A DNA stretch of 64,000 nt from Tateyamaria sp. ANG-S1 (lineage in GTDB: Bacteria; Pseudomonadota; Alphaproteobacteria; Rhodobacterales; Rhodobacteraceae). Location: contig NZ_JWLL01000005.1 of NCBI RefSeq assembly GCF_000814025.1, positions 1 through 64,000 on the forward strand. Reading direction: 5' to 3'. Every line of letters begins with the position of its first letter. Positions within the stretch are counted from its first letter, which is position 1. The position numbers and the translations under genes were made by a program. The notes below the pieces were generated by a model that saw only the letters and a program-made list of their open reading frames with translations, searched no databases and was not told where the DNA came from. This document shows positions 2,497 through 54,905 of the stretch, piece by piece.

Positions 2497-4157
2497 GATA
2501 GAGCCTCAAAATCAACCACCTGATCGGGTTTGTGAAAGACATCCGGCCGGTGGGTGATAACGATCACGGTCGTCGTTTGTTTGAGCCTCGTGAGCTCTTC
2601 AACAATGATGCGTTGGGCAGCGTCATCCAAAGCGCTGGTTGGCTCGTCCAATATCAAGACCTTGGGTTTCTTCAGCAACGACCGCGCAATTGCAATGCGC
2701 TGGCGTTGTCCACCTGACAAGGCTGATCCACGCTCTCCGACGTCTGTGTCCAACCCCAAGGGCAGGCGCGCAACCACGCTGTCCGCGGCTGCAGTGCGCA
2801 ACGCTGCTTGCAGATCGTCCTCGTCCGCGTGCTCTTCGCCAATCAACAGATTTTCACGCAGTGTTCCGGAAAACAAATAGGGCTCCTGCGGGATGTAAGC
2901 GATTTTTGAACGCACATCATGCGGCTCGAACTTACTGATGTCTTCACCTCCCAATCGAATATGTCCCTCTGACGGCACATCAATACCCGCCGCCAAACGG
3001 CCGAAAGTGGACTTTCCAATGCCCGATGGCCCAATGATCAGGGTCAGGGTGTTTGGATCTGCCACAAACTCAAAGCGCCGGAAGATAGGCGCACTGTCAG
3101 TGTACCCAAAAGAAACCTTTTCAAAACTCAGCCGAGGCTCCACATCAGACGGGAGTTTTGGGCGTGTGCCAAACGGTTCCATAGGCGTGTTGACGATGTC
3201 GCCCAATCGCTGCCGGGACACGCGAATATTCTGCCAGCTTTCCCACAAGCTGGAGAAGTTTGCGATAGGTGCAGTGACCTTTCCCGCCAAAAGGTGAAAT
3301 GCAATCAGCTGCCCAAGTGTCATTTCGCCTGCAAAAACCAGATTTGAACCGACAAATATGATTGAAATCGTGACACTGCGCTCAACGACAAATGTCAGCT
3401 TGTCGCTAAAAATGTTCAATAGACTGACGCGATAGCTTGCCTTGAGGCTGTCATGTAACGTTCTGTCCAGGCGTTCCAGCATCTTGCGCTCGGCGCTCAA
3501 CGCCTTGACCGCAGCGACACCCGAAATGTTGTCGACCATCTGAGACTGGTGGCGCGCGCCGGTATCAAACTGCGTCCGCAACCGGCGCCGCAAAAAGGGA
3601 CCAAATGCAAGATAGATAAAGGCTTGTAGGGGCAGCGCCACCAACACAATCATTGTCAAAGGCACTGACAAGGCCAGCAAAACAGCGATGTAAATGACAA
3701 CGAACAACAGATCGAGAAAGACACCGGTTGATGTTCCCACAAGGAAGTTCCGGATTGTATCCGTCTCTCCGATGCGGGCGATCGTTTCACCGACAGACCA
3801 TTTGCGAAAGTGACTGAAGGGCAGCTTGAAGAGGTGGTCAAAAATACGCCCGCCGAATTCCCGCGTTACCTTGTTTGCCGTCAGCACACCCAGAAGGCTG
3901 GACAGGACTTGAAATCCGATCTGGAACAGGCTCACCGCAGCAAAGACGGCAACGACCACGATCAGCGATGCCTCCCGCTGGAACGGCAGGATGCGGTCAA
4001 TAATCACCTGAAATATGAACGGTTCGACAAGCCCAAGGAGACGCAGACAGATCGCCAGAAAGACGAGTTCAAGATAAAGCGGGGAGTACTTCCAAAGCGA
4101 ACGCGTAAACCACGACAGAGGTATCTCGCGCCCCTGGTTTCGCTTCTCTTCCGGCAC
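2493..4157 (-). CDS. Type I secretion ABC exporter without N-terminal peptidase-like domain
   Basis: A 554-residue half-transporter: six-helix membrane domain (about residues 25-310), then an ATPase domain with Walker A (GPSGIGKST), signature (LSGGQRQRIAIAR) and Walker B (VLILDEPTSALD). The membrane domain opens with a HlyB/LapB-like segment (WFTRSLWKYSPLYLELVF, then PFIFQVIIDRILP). In those relatives it follows a C39 or C39-like domain of about 130 residues, which is absent here. Translation appears to start at GTG 4157; an in-frame TGA lies two codons upstream and there is no strong ribosome binding site, so 5' truncation is possible. An IS110 remnant lies about 660 bases upstream. Coupled to the downstream HlyD gene. 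Confidence 0.85.
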   Translation of the reverse strand: MPEEKRNQGREIPLSWFTRSLWKYSPLYLELVFLAICLRLLGLVEPFIFQVIIDRILPFQREASLIVVVAVFAAVSLFQIGFQVLSSLLGVLTANKVTREFGGRIFDHLFKLPFSHFRKWSVGETIARIGETDTIRNFLVGTSTGVFLDLLFVVIYIAVLLALSVPLTMIVLVALPLQAFIYLAFGPFLRRRLRTQFDTGARHQSQMVDNISGVAAVKALSAERKMLERLDRTLHDSLKASYRVSLLNIFSDKLTFVVERSVTISIIFVGSNLVFAGEMTLGQLIAFHLLAGKVTAPIANFSSLWESWQNIRVSRQRLGDIVNTPMEPFGTRPKLPSDVEPRLSFEKVSFGYTDSAPIFRRFEFVADPNTLTLIIGPSGIGKSTFGRLAAGIDVPSEGHIRLGGEDISKFEPHDVRSKIAYIPQEPYLFSGTLRENLLIGEEHADEDDLQAALRTAAADSVVARLPLGLDTDVGERGSALSGGQRQRIAIARSLLKKPKVLILDEPTSALDDAAQRIIVEELTRLKQTTTVIVITHRPDVFHKPDQVVDFEALS

Positions 4158-51707: not shown

Positions 51708-51834
51708 CAGGTGTGGTCGGCTCAGATGGCCGCAACCCATCCTGACGGACCGGTGTTCATTGCTGCCAATCCAGGGTCACTGCTGGCGTCGAAGATGCTC
51801 AAGGAAGGCTTCGGGGTAGCCGGAAACGACCTAC
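51708..51834 (+). pseudogene. Short-chain dehydrogenase C-terminal fragment
   Basis: [20 protein letters not shown] and [20 protein letters not shown] resemble the C-terminal region of retinol-dehydrogenase-like SDR enzymes (substrate loop and final helix). It is cut on the left by the LysR fragment and on the right by the end of the recombinase gene. Only about 42 codons remain. Confidence 0.75.
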
Positions 51835-52454
51835 AGGTCGGCGATAGCCAGAGCATCCTCGAGTTCCACGCCAAGATATCTGACTGTACTGTCCATCTTG
51901 GTATGACCCAACAAGAGTTGAACTGCTCTAAGGTTCCCCGTCTTCTTGTAGATCTGGGTGACTTTAGTTCGGCGCATTGAATGGGTGCCGTAAGCGCTCG
52001 CCTCAAGGCCGATCGAGGTCACCCAGTCTCGGACAATCCGTGCGTATTGTCGCGTTGAGATGAGCAGGCGCTCATGAAAGCGGCCAGGCCAAAGGTACTC
52101 CGAGCCTACCATAAGTTCGTCTTCCATCCATCTCTCAACCGAGGCTCTGGTGCCTTCGGAGATTTCAAAACGAACCGGCTTCTGCGTTTTGCTTTGCAAT
52201 ACCGACGCCCGTTCCTTGATCTGGCCGGACGCCATCACATCGACGACTTTCATTTTCATGAGATCGCAGCCACGCAGTTTGCTGTCGATTGCCATGTTGA
52301 ATAAAGCAAGATCGCGATGATTTTCGGCCAGCTCAAGGCGAACTCGAATGGCCCAGACATGCTTTGGTTTCAGCGGCCGCTTCTGGCCAACGATACGCCC
52401 CTTGTTCCATGCGGGGCGGAGTGCGCGAATGGCAGGTAAATTTGGTGTTTCCAT
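51831..52454 (-). CDS. Small tyrosine recombinase
   Basis: A 207-residue protein that is nearly all catalytic domain, with the site-specific recombinase residues in order: Arg in [11 protein letters not shown] (near 60), Lys in KTQKPVRF, HxxR as HSMRRTKV (near 157), His/Trp-position in [10 protein letters not shown], and nucleophile Tyr in VRYLGVE (near 193). The start has GGAGG at seven bases. It lacks the N-terminal core-binding domain of typical integrases. It is intact, adjoins two gene fragments at its 3' end, and has a decayed copy at 35580-35850. Confidence 0.9.
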
Positions 52455-52816: not shown

Positions 52817-53938
52817 ATGGAGCTTCTCGAGGTCAGCCATAACATCCTTCTTGTCGCCATGTCTTGCGTGGTGGCGTTGGTCGCGGGGTTCACTGGCTTG
52901 TCTTTGACACGCGACCTTGGTTCAAAACCTGACTTCGAGAAGAAGGCACTGATTGCTTTGGCTGCCATCGCGCTTGGTGGCGGGATATGGGCCATGCATT
53001 TCGTTGCCATGCTTGGGCTGCAGATGCCCATCCTGTTTTACTACGATGCAGCGATTACGCTGATCTCAGCGCTTACGGCGATCCTTATTGTCGGGGCCGC
53101 GTTGATCATCCTGCATTTCACGCATCGCACCCGTTTCACAGTATCCCTGGCAGGAGCCATTGTGGGTGTGGGCGTTCTTGCCATGCATTATATTGGCATG
53201 GCAGGGCTGCAGCTATGCCGGGCTGTCTACACACCGCTGGGTGTTGTCGTATCGTCGCTGGTGGCCGTTCTGCTTTGCGTTCTGGCCTTTGGCATTGCCT
53301 ATGGGCAAAGGACCAATCGGAACATTTTTCTCGGCACTATTTGTTTTGCTGTCGCGGTGGCGAGCGTCCATTTTTTGGCAATGGCCGGGACCGAATTTGT
53401 GGCGGTTTCGGATGGCACCGAGTTTGGTCCGCTTATGAGCAATGAGACACTTGCCCTTGGGGTCATCTTTTTCAGTTTCGTCATATTCGGGGCCTGTCTT
53501 TGGGTCGGTGTTACATATCTGCCCCGCCCGGCAGACGGCGCTGCGCAGCCTCAGGAAAACGGCCTGCCCAAGACCGAAACGCAGCTTTTGCAGGTTCCGT
53601 GCGAGCGTGACGGCGGCAAAGTTTTCGTGTCGGCCAGGGATGTCGTCTTTGTTCGGGCAGATGCACATTACACGCAGGTCTACACCCAGGACGAGCGGTT
53701 GTTTTGTACGTGGTCAGTGACGGAAGCCATGAAACGGCTTTGCCCGCTGGGTTTTCTGCAAACTCATCGTAGCTATTTGGTCAATCCTGAGCATGTCGTC
53801 CGATTTGAGCGGACCAAAGACAGCGGCAAATGCGTGTTCGAAGGTGCTGAAACACCCCCGGCCCCGGTAAGCCGTTCCAAGCTTAAGGCGATACAGGATG
53901 CTCTGGCGTCGCAGGTCGGTGCAATTCGTGCAACCTGA
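52817..53938 (+). CDS. MHYT-LytTR membrane regulator of CO oxidation
   Basis: A 373-residue regulator: seven predicted helices with three MHYT-type motifs (WAMHFVAM near 56, LAMHYIGM near 120, SVHFLAMAG near 182), thought to bind a metal and sense a diatomic gas, then a linker and a C-terminal LytTR DNA-binding domain (about 255-360: SARDVVFVRADAHYTQVYT; GFLQTHRSYLVNPEHVVRFE). This layout matches CoxC/CoxH of carboxidotrophs. The stop is 112 bases before coxM, and 21-bp-period direct repeats lie over its 3' end. It probably activates the cox operon on sensing CO (inference from family and context). Confidence 0.9.
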   Translation: MELLEVSHNILLVAMSCVVALVAGFTGLSLTRDLGSKPDFEKKALIALAAIALGGGIWAMHFVAMLGLQMPILFYYDAAITLISALTAILIVGAALIILHFTHRTRFTVSLAGAIVGVGVLAMHYIGMAGLQLCRAVYTPLGVVVSSLVAVLLCVLAFGIAYGQRTNRNIFLGTICFAVAVASVHFLAMAGTEFVAVSDGTEFGPLMSNETLALGVIFFSFVIFGACLWVGVTYLPRPADGAAQPQENGLPKTETQLLQVPCERDGGKVFVSARDVVFVRADAHYTQVYTQDERLFCTWSVTEAMKRLCPLGFLQTHRSYLVNPEHVVRFERTKDSGKCVFEGAETPPAPVSRSKLKAIQDALASQVGAIRAT

Positions 53939-53954
53939 GGCGCAACTCGTGCAA
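53921..53954 (+). promoter_or_regulatory. Direct repeats, candidate LytTR binding site
   Basis: GCAATTCGTGCAA (53921-53933) and GCAACTCGTGCAA (53942-53954) match at 12 of 13 positions with a 21-bp period. LytTR proteins typically bind two direct repeats spaced by two helical turns. The pair overlaps the 3' end of the LytTR gene and ends 96 bases before the coxM start, a suitable activator position. Confidence 0.7.
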
Positions 53955-54050
53955 AATGCCTGTTTTTCGTTGATTTTCTAAAGCCTCGGCATAGGGGCGT
54001 ATGCACTCCTGCCCTGCAGCAAGTTGAATCGCTTTTAGGGAGGAGAGCCG

Positions 54051-54905
54051 ATGATACCAGCGGCATTCGAGTATTATCGACCCAAGGACATGGCAGGCGT
54101 TCTGTCGATCCTGGAAGAACACGGTGACGACGCCCGCGTCATGGCCGGCGGTCATAGCCTTATTCCAATGATGAAGCTGCGCATGGCGGATGTGCCGCAC
54201 CTGATCGACCTTCAGGATGTGGGCGGGATGTCTGACATCGCCGTGACAGCCGACAGCATCCGCATCGGCGCGATGGTCACGCAGCATGATATTATCGATC
54301 ACGACGGCCTGGCCTCCGCTGCACCCATCCTGCGTGAAGCGGCGCTGCAAATCGCGGATCCGCAGGTGCGTTATATGGGGACTGTCGGTGGCAATGTCGC
54401 CAACGGTGATCCGGGCAATGACATGCCGGGCCTGATGCAGTGCCTTGATGCCGCCTTTACCGTCGTTGGCGCTGAGGGCGAACGGGACATTCCTGCGCGT
54501 GACTTTTACGAAGCTGCCTACATGACCGCGCGCGAGGACGAAGAGGTTCTGACCGCAGTTATGATCCCCGCGCCCCAGGGCGGCTATGCTTACGAAAAGC
54601 AGAAGCGCAAGATCGGGGACTACGCCACTGCCGCAGCTGCTGTGCAGATTGTGAAAGACGGCGGGTCTTGCGTGTCCGCGTCGATTGCGATGACCAACCT
54701 CAGCGATACGCCGATCTATTCCGAAGATGCTGGCGCCGCACTGGTCGGCACATCTGTGGATGATGCGGCGATCAAAGCAGCGATTGCGGCCATGCTGGGC
54801 GATATCGACCCGACCGAAGACAATCGCGGCCCTGTCGCTTTCAAAAAACACGTCGCCGGCGTGATCCTGCGCCGCGCGATCGAGCGCGCCTGGTCACGAG
54901 CATAA
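54051..54905 (+). CDS. coxM: CO dehydrogenase medium (FAD) subunit
   Basis: CoxM passes electrons from the Fe-S subunit via FAD to the quinone pool. The 284-residue product has the two FAD-binding motifs [15 protein letters not shown] (near 32) and [17 protein letters not shown] (near 110) and ends in a helical CoxM C-terminal domain. GGGAGGAGAG precedes the ATG. It is the first structural gene; coxS starts 11 bases later. The LytTR-type repeats lie in its upstream region. Confidence 0.96.

Follow-up and report, generated by a model that had tools for sequence, protein, structure and literature searches.

What controls the CO dehydrogenase genes of Tateyamaria sp. ANG-S1? Roseobacters have form I CO dehydrogenase, and the window we analyzed, a stretch of 64,000 nucleotides from this bacterium, places a gene for a likely regulator right beside the enzyme's genes. 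The regulator gene, coxC, encodes an MHYT–LytTR protein of 373 aa (52817-53938, plus strand). It is followed on the same strand by coxM (54051-54905), which encodes the FAD subunit of CO dehydrogenase, is the first gene of coxMSL and is the gene we presume to be regulated. A first-pass annotation of this DNA had picked out two short direct repeats ahead of coxM and suggested that they are binding sites for a LytTR domain. Our search of the open-licence literature for such a control site, or for a roseobacter CoxC, found no paper. The answer we came to, drawn from sequence comparison, is that positions 53921-53972 are very probably a three-box operator through which CoxC controls coxMSL; that CoxC acts there as a repressor is a likelihood of a lower order, argued by analogy.

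The regulator, the genes and the boxes

The coxC open reading frame has Pfam matches to MHYT (1.8e-32) and LytTR (4.4e-17), the latter covering residues 269-363 (53621-53905). Two MHYT-like motifs are retained (MHFV and MHYI), together with a third variant, VHFL. The LytTR part has HYT, HRS and PVSR in common with the CoxC of Afipia, to which the window's protein is only 30% identical. No NCBIfam model scored above its cut-off for the protein, and a sequence search of the PDB with its LytTR part gave one weak match (E 0.61). The genes adjoining the site, besides that for the MHYT–LytTR protein, are form I cox genes: the coxL translation contains SYRCSFR, which differs in its first letter from the form I motif AYXCSFR. 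A stretch that by eye is the presumed ribosome-binding site of coxM, AGGGAGGAG, occupies 54037-54045 on the plus strand, and stretches resembling it can be seen, again by eye, in most rows of our comparison of coxM upstream regions. Just upstream of coxC, on the minus strand, is a gene of the phage-integrase family (51831-52454).

The two 13-base repeats are there as first described. GCAATTCGTGCAA (53921-53933) and GCAACTCGTGCAA (53942-53954) are identical at 12 of 13 positions with a period of 21, and the match widens to 14 of 16 in the window sequence when started at 53918 and 53939. There are, though, three boxes in all and not two, the third being degenerate. Nor do both repeats come after the MHYT–LytTR gene, as had been stated: repeat 2 is intergenic, but repeat 1 lies within the open reading frame, the stop codon of which is at 53936-53938. 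All three boxes are on the plus strand. Box 1 (GCAATTCGTGC, 53921-53931) is in frame within the 3' end of coxC, where it is read as A-I-R-A; box 2 (GCAACTCGTGC, 53942-53952) begins 21 bp further on, between the genes; and box 3 (GTTTTTCGTTG, 53962-53972) begins 20 bp after box 2 and 41 bp from box 1.

Taken alone, the repeat pair is weak and insignificant against the 64-kb background. It is the sole 13-mer repeat at distance 21 in the window; distance 22 has three overlapping positions elsewhere, and distances 14-60 average 1.2 positions each when overlapping ones are counted apart. What raises the box pair far above chance is its conservation across relatives. The double box, allowing at most three mismatches, occurs once in the bacterium's own genome.

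Conservation before coxM

A scan for CoxC yielded 78 loci, and the tandem order of coxC then coxM was found in 63 loci, the window's own among them. A second sample comprised 394 genomes of the family, of which 96 carry CoxC and 101 carry this kind of coxM; DNA was taken from 95 of the 96 CoxC genomes (G344 was left out), from the coxM genomes without CoxC and from four plasmid records. We excluded 19 of 187 loci for want of a usable coxM start (L065-L079, L105, L154, L175 and L182), which left 168, and then one member of each of 14 identical pairs, which left 154 distinct upstreams.

Two GCRNNTCGTG boxes, 20-22 bp apart and mismatched at no more than 3 of 16 positions, stand before coxM in 147 of these 154 upstreams, which come from interrelated loci, mostly picked for the presence of CoxC, and are therefore not independent events; the same search succeeds in 1.7% of 3080 dinucleotide shuffles. 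A perfect pair is found in 91 of the 154 (shuffles, 0.0). Exact boxes show only two spacings in more than one locus, 21 (61 loci) and 20 (30 loci). The consensus of box 2 over 148 loci is TTCGTGcA, and the columns between and after the boxes mostly carry about 0 bits. The first-pass annotation had proposed looking for the repeat before coxM wherever the regulator is present, and its expectation survived: where a CoxC match shares the locus with coxM, the two boxes precede 145 of 148 distinct copies (up to 260 bp upstream, spacing 20-21, at most 3/16 mismatches), and these 145 include a locus with divergent gene order (L064) and one genome with coxC 14 kb from coxM (G328, L174). Ruegeria pomeroyi (L016) has the site as well.

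The seven upstreams out of 154 that lack the two-box pair (20-22 bp, at most 3/16 mismatches) are a mixed group. L083 has a box pair spaced by 19 bp, or a 21/20 triple further up; the upstream of L180 is 69 bases only; CoxC is missing from the L177 and L179 loci; and L063, L167 and L178 have CoxC-like matches at 31-37% identity.

The third box emerges from the average. When a matrix made from boxes 1 and 2 is scored along the DNA, the average over the 94 loci of the 21-class peaks 20 bp past box 2 and that over the 53 loci of the 20-class 21 bp past it; either way the peak is 41 bp from box 1. The best layout at single loci (offsets 15-27) has the outer boxes 41 bp apart in 95 of 148, 42 in 21 and 40 in 7, and the score of the third box locus by locus exceeds the 95% null in just 23%. 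The third box is thus kept on average, yet degenerate: TTCATTGA- or TCGTTC-like in place of TTCGTGC.

The boxes also stay with coxM where coxC is divergent or kilobases away. In L064, where the two genes diverge, they are oriented toward coxM. Perfect boxes precede coxM in G328, with coxC 14 kb off, in G007, with coxC about 4 kb off, and in G279, where the sole CoxC match (the MHYT part, residues 3-242) is 30 kb off. A box site upstream of coxC itself was found in 0 of 61 cases at two or fewer mismatches.

Repressor or activator

How might such an operator work? Three direct boxes, each with the unit GCRNNTCGTG(C), would form the operator for the LytTR domain of the CoxC encoded just upstream, successive LytTR domains lying on one face of the DNA about two helical turns apart. 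CoxC on the three boxes would hold coxMSL repressed until the protein senses CO. If it works as its Afipia homologue does, the MHYT domain in the membrane would sense CO with copper, and CO would free CoxC from the DNA, so that the CO dehydrogenase genes are de-repressed. We infer the CO response, the binding and the repressor sign from the Afipia protein, a membrane repressor that lets go of DNA once CO is bound with copper (PMC11347149).

The sign is the part of this scheme of which we are least sure, because the aligned 21- and 20-class loci contain no convincing conserved sigma-70 promoter around the boxes. In the 21-class the best promoter pair averages 1.5 bits, where the median over positions is -10.2; the 20-class reaches -2.2 against a median of -11.9. 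These scores give no support to repression by overlap with a -35 element. That leaves room for CoxC to be an activator on the same operator, its binding promoted by CO, which we regard as possible though clearly the less likely sign. Most LytTR proteins are activators, and the lack of a strong core promoter near the boxes is what an activator-dependent promoter would show. Furthermore, box 1 fits the consensus of the RcoM1 operator, TTCNNGCA, the spacing fits its spacers of 12-13 bp, and RcoM1 is an activator, as quoted in PMC11347149. Against this, the MHYT–LytTR protein described in that paper is a repressor relieved by CO, and by eye a possible -35 element, TTGA-like in sequence, overlaps box 3. 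A repressor role for CoxC at coxMSL is, on this analogy, the one we would back, with moderate confidence.

Downstream of the boxes lies an imperfect inverted repeat, GCATAG-N4-GTATGC (window 53989-54004). Among the 94 loci of the 21-class, 42 have an inverted repeat of the form 6-N4-6 with at least five of six pairs, compared with 18% of base shuffles, and 20 of these repeats are at offset +68 from box 1; the 20-class has them in 22 of 53 loci, compared with 26% of base shuffles, with no shared offset. The window's repeat is possibly a second regulator site or a hairpin in the 5' UTR. Rfam gave no match on 53850-54100.

Which LytTR protein would bind?

A CoxC operator presupposes that CoxC, and not some other LytTR protein, is what binds. 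The rival reading makes CoxC a bystander and gives the site to an RcoM-like protein or to the genome's second LytTR protein, and we consider it improbable. The genome does have two LytTR genes, that for CoxC and one for a 279-aa protein (G000:C29:761575), and the exact fit of box 1 to the RcoM1 consensus could be read this way. Neither gene, however, has a Pfam PAS match such as a PAS–LytTR protein (RcoM) would have. In the second protein (L188 734-1573), LytTR is the sole Pfam match, with neither PAS nor MHYT; by eye it has a long hydrophobic N-terminal part. LytTR open reading frames of 279-305 aa, matched by length, recur in 11 of 12 other genomes of the genus; four of these genomes lack any further LytTR gene.

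The genome scans argue in the same direction. Of the 394 genomes, 25 have an exact double box: 24 belong to the 96 CoxC genomes and one to the 298 others (Fisher P 3e-15). All 24 double boxes in the CoxC genomes are directly upstream of coxM. The reversed-pattern control gave about 21 matches (10 forward and 11 reverse, counted by eye) to the 25; with a control nearly as frequent, it is the place of the matches, not their raw number, that carries weight. The exact double box outside the CoxC genomes, in G382, we judge to be a chance match: the genome has no coxM match, and its neighbors look phage-like by eye. A looser scan with two mismatches was uninformative, since it matched 331 of 394 genomes and its controls were equally frequent; in the window's own genome it gave three matches against one for the control.

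For six coxM upstreams, the locus as fetched contains no CoxC. Boxes are missing from three of them: those of G008 and G083, genomes with no CoxC match, and that of G102, a fragment of 69 bases. The other three do have boxes, and for two of these (G279 and G296) there is a CoxC match in another part of the genome. The last, G109, speaks for another binder, with a box pair at three mismatches and no CoxC found in the genome scan.

Box 1 in the coxC reading frame

Because box 1 of the window is coding, we compared codons at 76 loci, skipping L057, L063 and L105, which lack boxes, to leave 73. Box 1 lies inside coxC in 47 of the 73, always in the identical frame, and past the coxC stop codon in the remaining 26, where coxC ends earlier. 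The Arg place in box 1 encodes Arg in 37 of the 47 (another residue in 10), and the codon is CGT in 37 of 37, although CGT makes up 15.7% of Arg codons in the remainder of these coxC genes. The Ala place encodes Ala in 41 of the 47 (another residue in six) and uses GCA in 39 of 41, compared with 18.3% of Ala codons elsewhere in the same genes. This codon choice points to selection on the DNA rather than on the protein. That the repeats are a by-product of the C-terminal peptide of CoxC (GAIRAT) or a chance duplication, as the single frame of the coding boxes and a bare repeat that is not rare in 64 kb might suggest, is hardly credible and is already contradicted by the codon choice, the 26 loci with box 1 past the stop codon and the boxes that stand apart from coxC.

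Afipia and other Hyphomicrobiales

The three-box matrix was trained on 135 loci, with Afipia and other Hyphomicrobiales excluded, and scanned over the left-out DNA. On both strands of 11.2 kb of Afipia pHCG3, the top site is 3185-3237, which scores 22.5; the highest score in 12 block shuffles of that DNA is 10.7. It falls in the PcoxB region, where binding of CoxC has been shown experimentally (PMC11347149). The second-ranked site, a candidate second CoxC site, is at the coxC–coxM junction (L080 6225-6277), with a weak score of 3.8, below the best shuffle (10.7); in Bradyrhizobium L193 the top site falls at the corresponding position. Neither PcoxM nor internal promoter occurs as a term in the text of PMC11347149, and the parts of it covered here do not mention the junction site.

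The model and the published work set the Afipia repeats in different registers. The model boxes start at 3185, 3206 and 3226 of L080 (periods 21 and 20), and the repeats altered in PMC11347149 start at 3201, 3230 and 3256, that is, with periods of 29 and 26; the intervals of 18-21 bp given there are spacers. Of the substitutions published there, those at 3206, 3230, 3231 and 3235 fall within the model boxes and those at 3201, 3202, 3256, 3257 and 3261 outside them, so the published data decide neither register.

Seven of the 15 records H6-H20 of Hyphomicrobiales were fetched. In six of six loci other than Afipia (one Shinella, one Bradyrhizobium, three Rhizobium and one Sinorhizobium) the top site lies directly after a coxC-like gene; the scores for Bradyrhizobium (10.3) and Rhizobium leguminosarum (8.5) are below the best Afipia shuffle (10.7), and these two, like the Afipia junction, count by their place. 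On pSymA of Sinorhizobium meliloti (L195 5238) and in R. leguminosarum (L194 5209), a gene for a CoxC-like MHYT–LytTR protein is followed by the three-box site and then by a gene for an EAL-domain protein. No coxM was found at either locus, and the three-box score of L194 is weak. The arrangement is a possible gas-to-c-di-GMP switch.

Comparison with known systems

Tentatively, and as a proposition we would put at a little under even chances, a single MHYT–LytTR operator code may run through the Alphaproteobacteria: three GCRNNTCGTG boxes, the outer pair tending to 41 bp and the middle one at 20 or 21. Under such a code, the published Afipia register would be offset (the true one being 3185, 3206 and 3226 in L080), Afipia would have a second, unreported site before coxM, Sinorhizobium and Rhizobium would have re-used the sensor–operator unit for an EAL-domain gene instead of cox, and box 1 of the roseobacters would have been absorbed into the reading frame of the regulator. 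Through the predicted operator, more than 100 cox loci are tied to the MHYT sensor known from work on Afipia; the operator sequence predicts which cox clusters CoxC controls, and the three-box model puts in question the register of the Afipia operator as published in PMC11347149.

The first-pass annotation had likened the two-turn spacing to LytTR sites, and the likeness bears out: the spacing fits the RcoM1 operator and resembles the Afipia CoxC operator (PMC11347149). Canonical LytTR sites are direct repeats about two turns apart, and a spacing of 21 or 20 dominates here; they are pairs of 9-bp repeats 10-13 bp apart (PMC11347149), whereas the window has three boxes; the likeness seen here is one of layout. 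The RcoM1 operator of Paraburkholderia xenovorans, which stands before aerobic cox genes, as quoted in the same paper, has three TTCNNGCA repeats with spacers of 12-13 bp, a period of 20-21 bp. The window has that spacing, and its box 1 is exact, boxes 2 and 3 inexact. RcoM1, however, is a heme sensor as well as an activator, whereas the LytTR proteins of the window's genome are, by Pfam, one MHYT–LytTR and one LytTR-only.

Another close counterpart is the PcoxB operator of Afipia (Oligotropha) carboxidovorans OM5. There, too, an MHYT–LytTR regulator of cox genes has three direct repeats (PMC11347149), and a model trained on coxM junctions ranks the PcoxB region top. The box 1 unit of the window, TTCGTGCA, fits the Afipia repeat TTNNNGCN; box 2, CTCGTGCA, departs from that repeat at the first T, and box 3, TTCGTTGA, fits at the leading TT only. 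The two operators differ in place, the window's standing before coxM and partly in coxC and that of Afipia before coxB, and in period, 21/20 in the window against the published 29 and 26.
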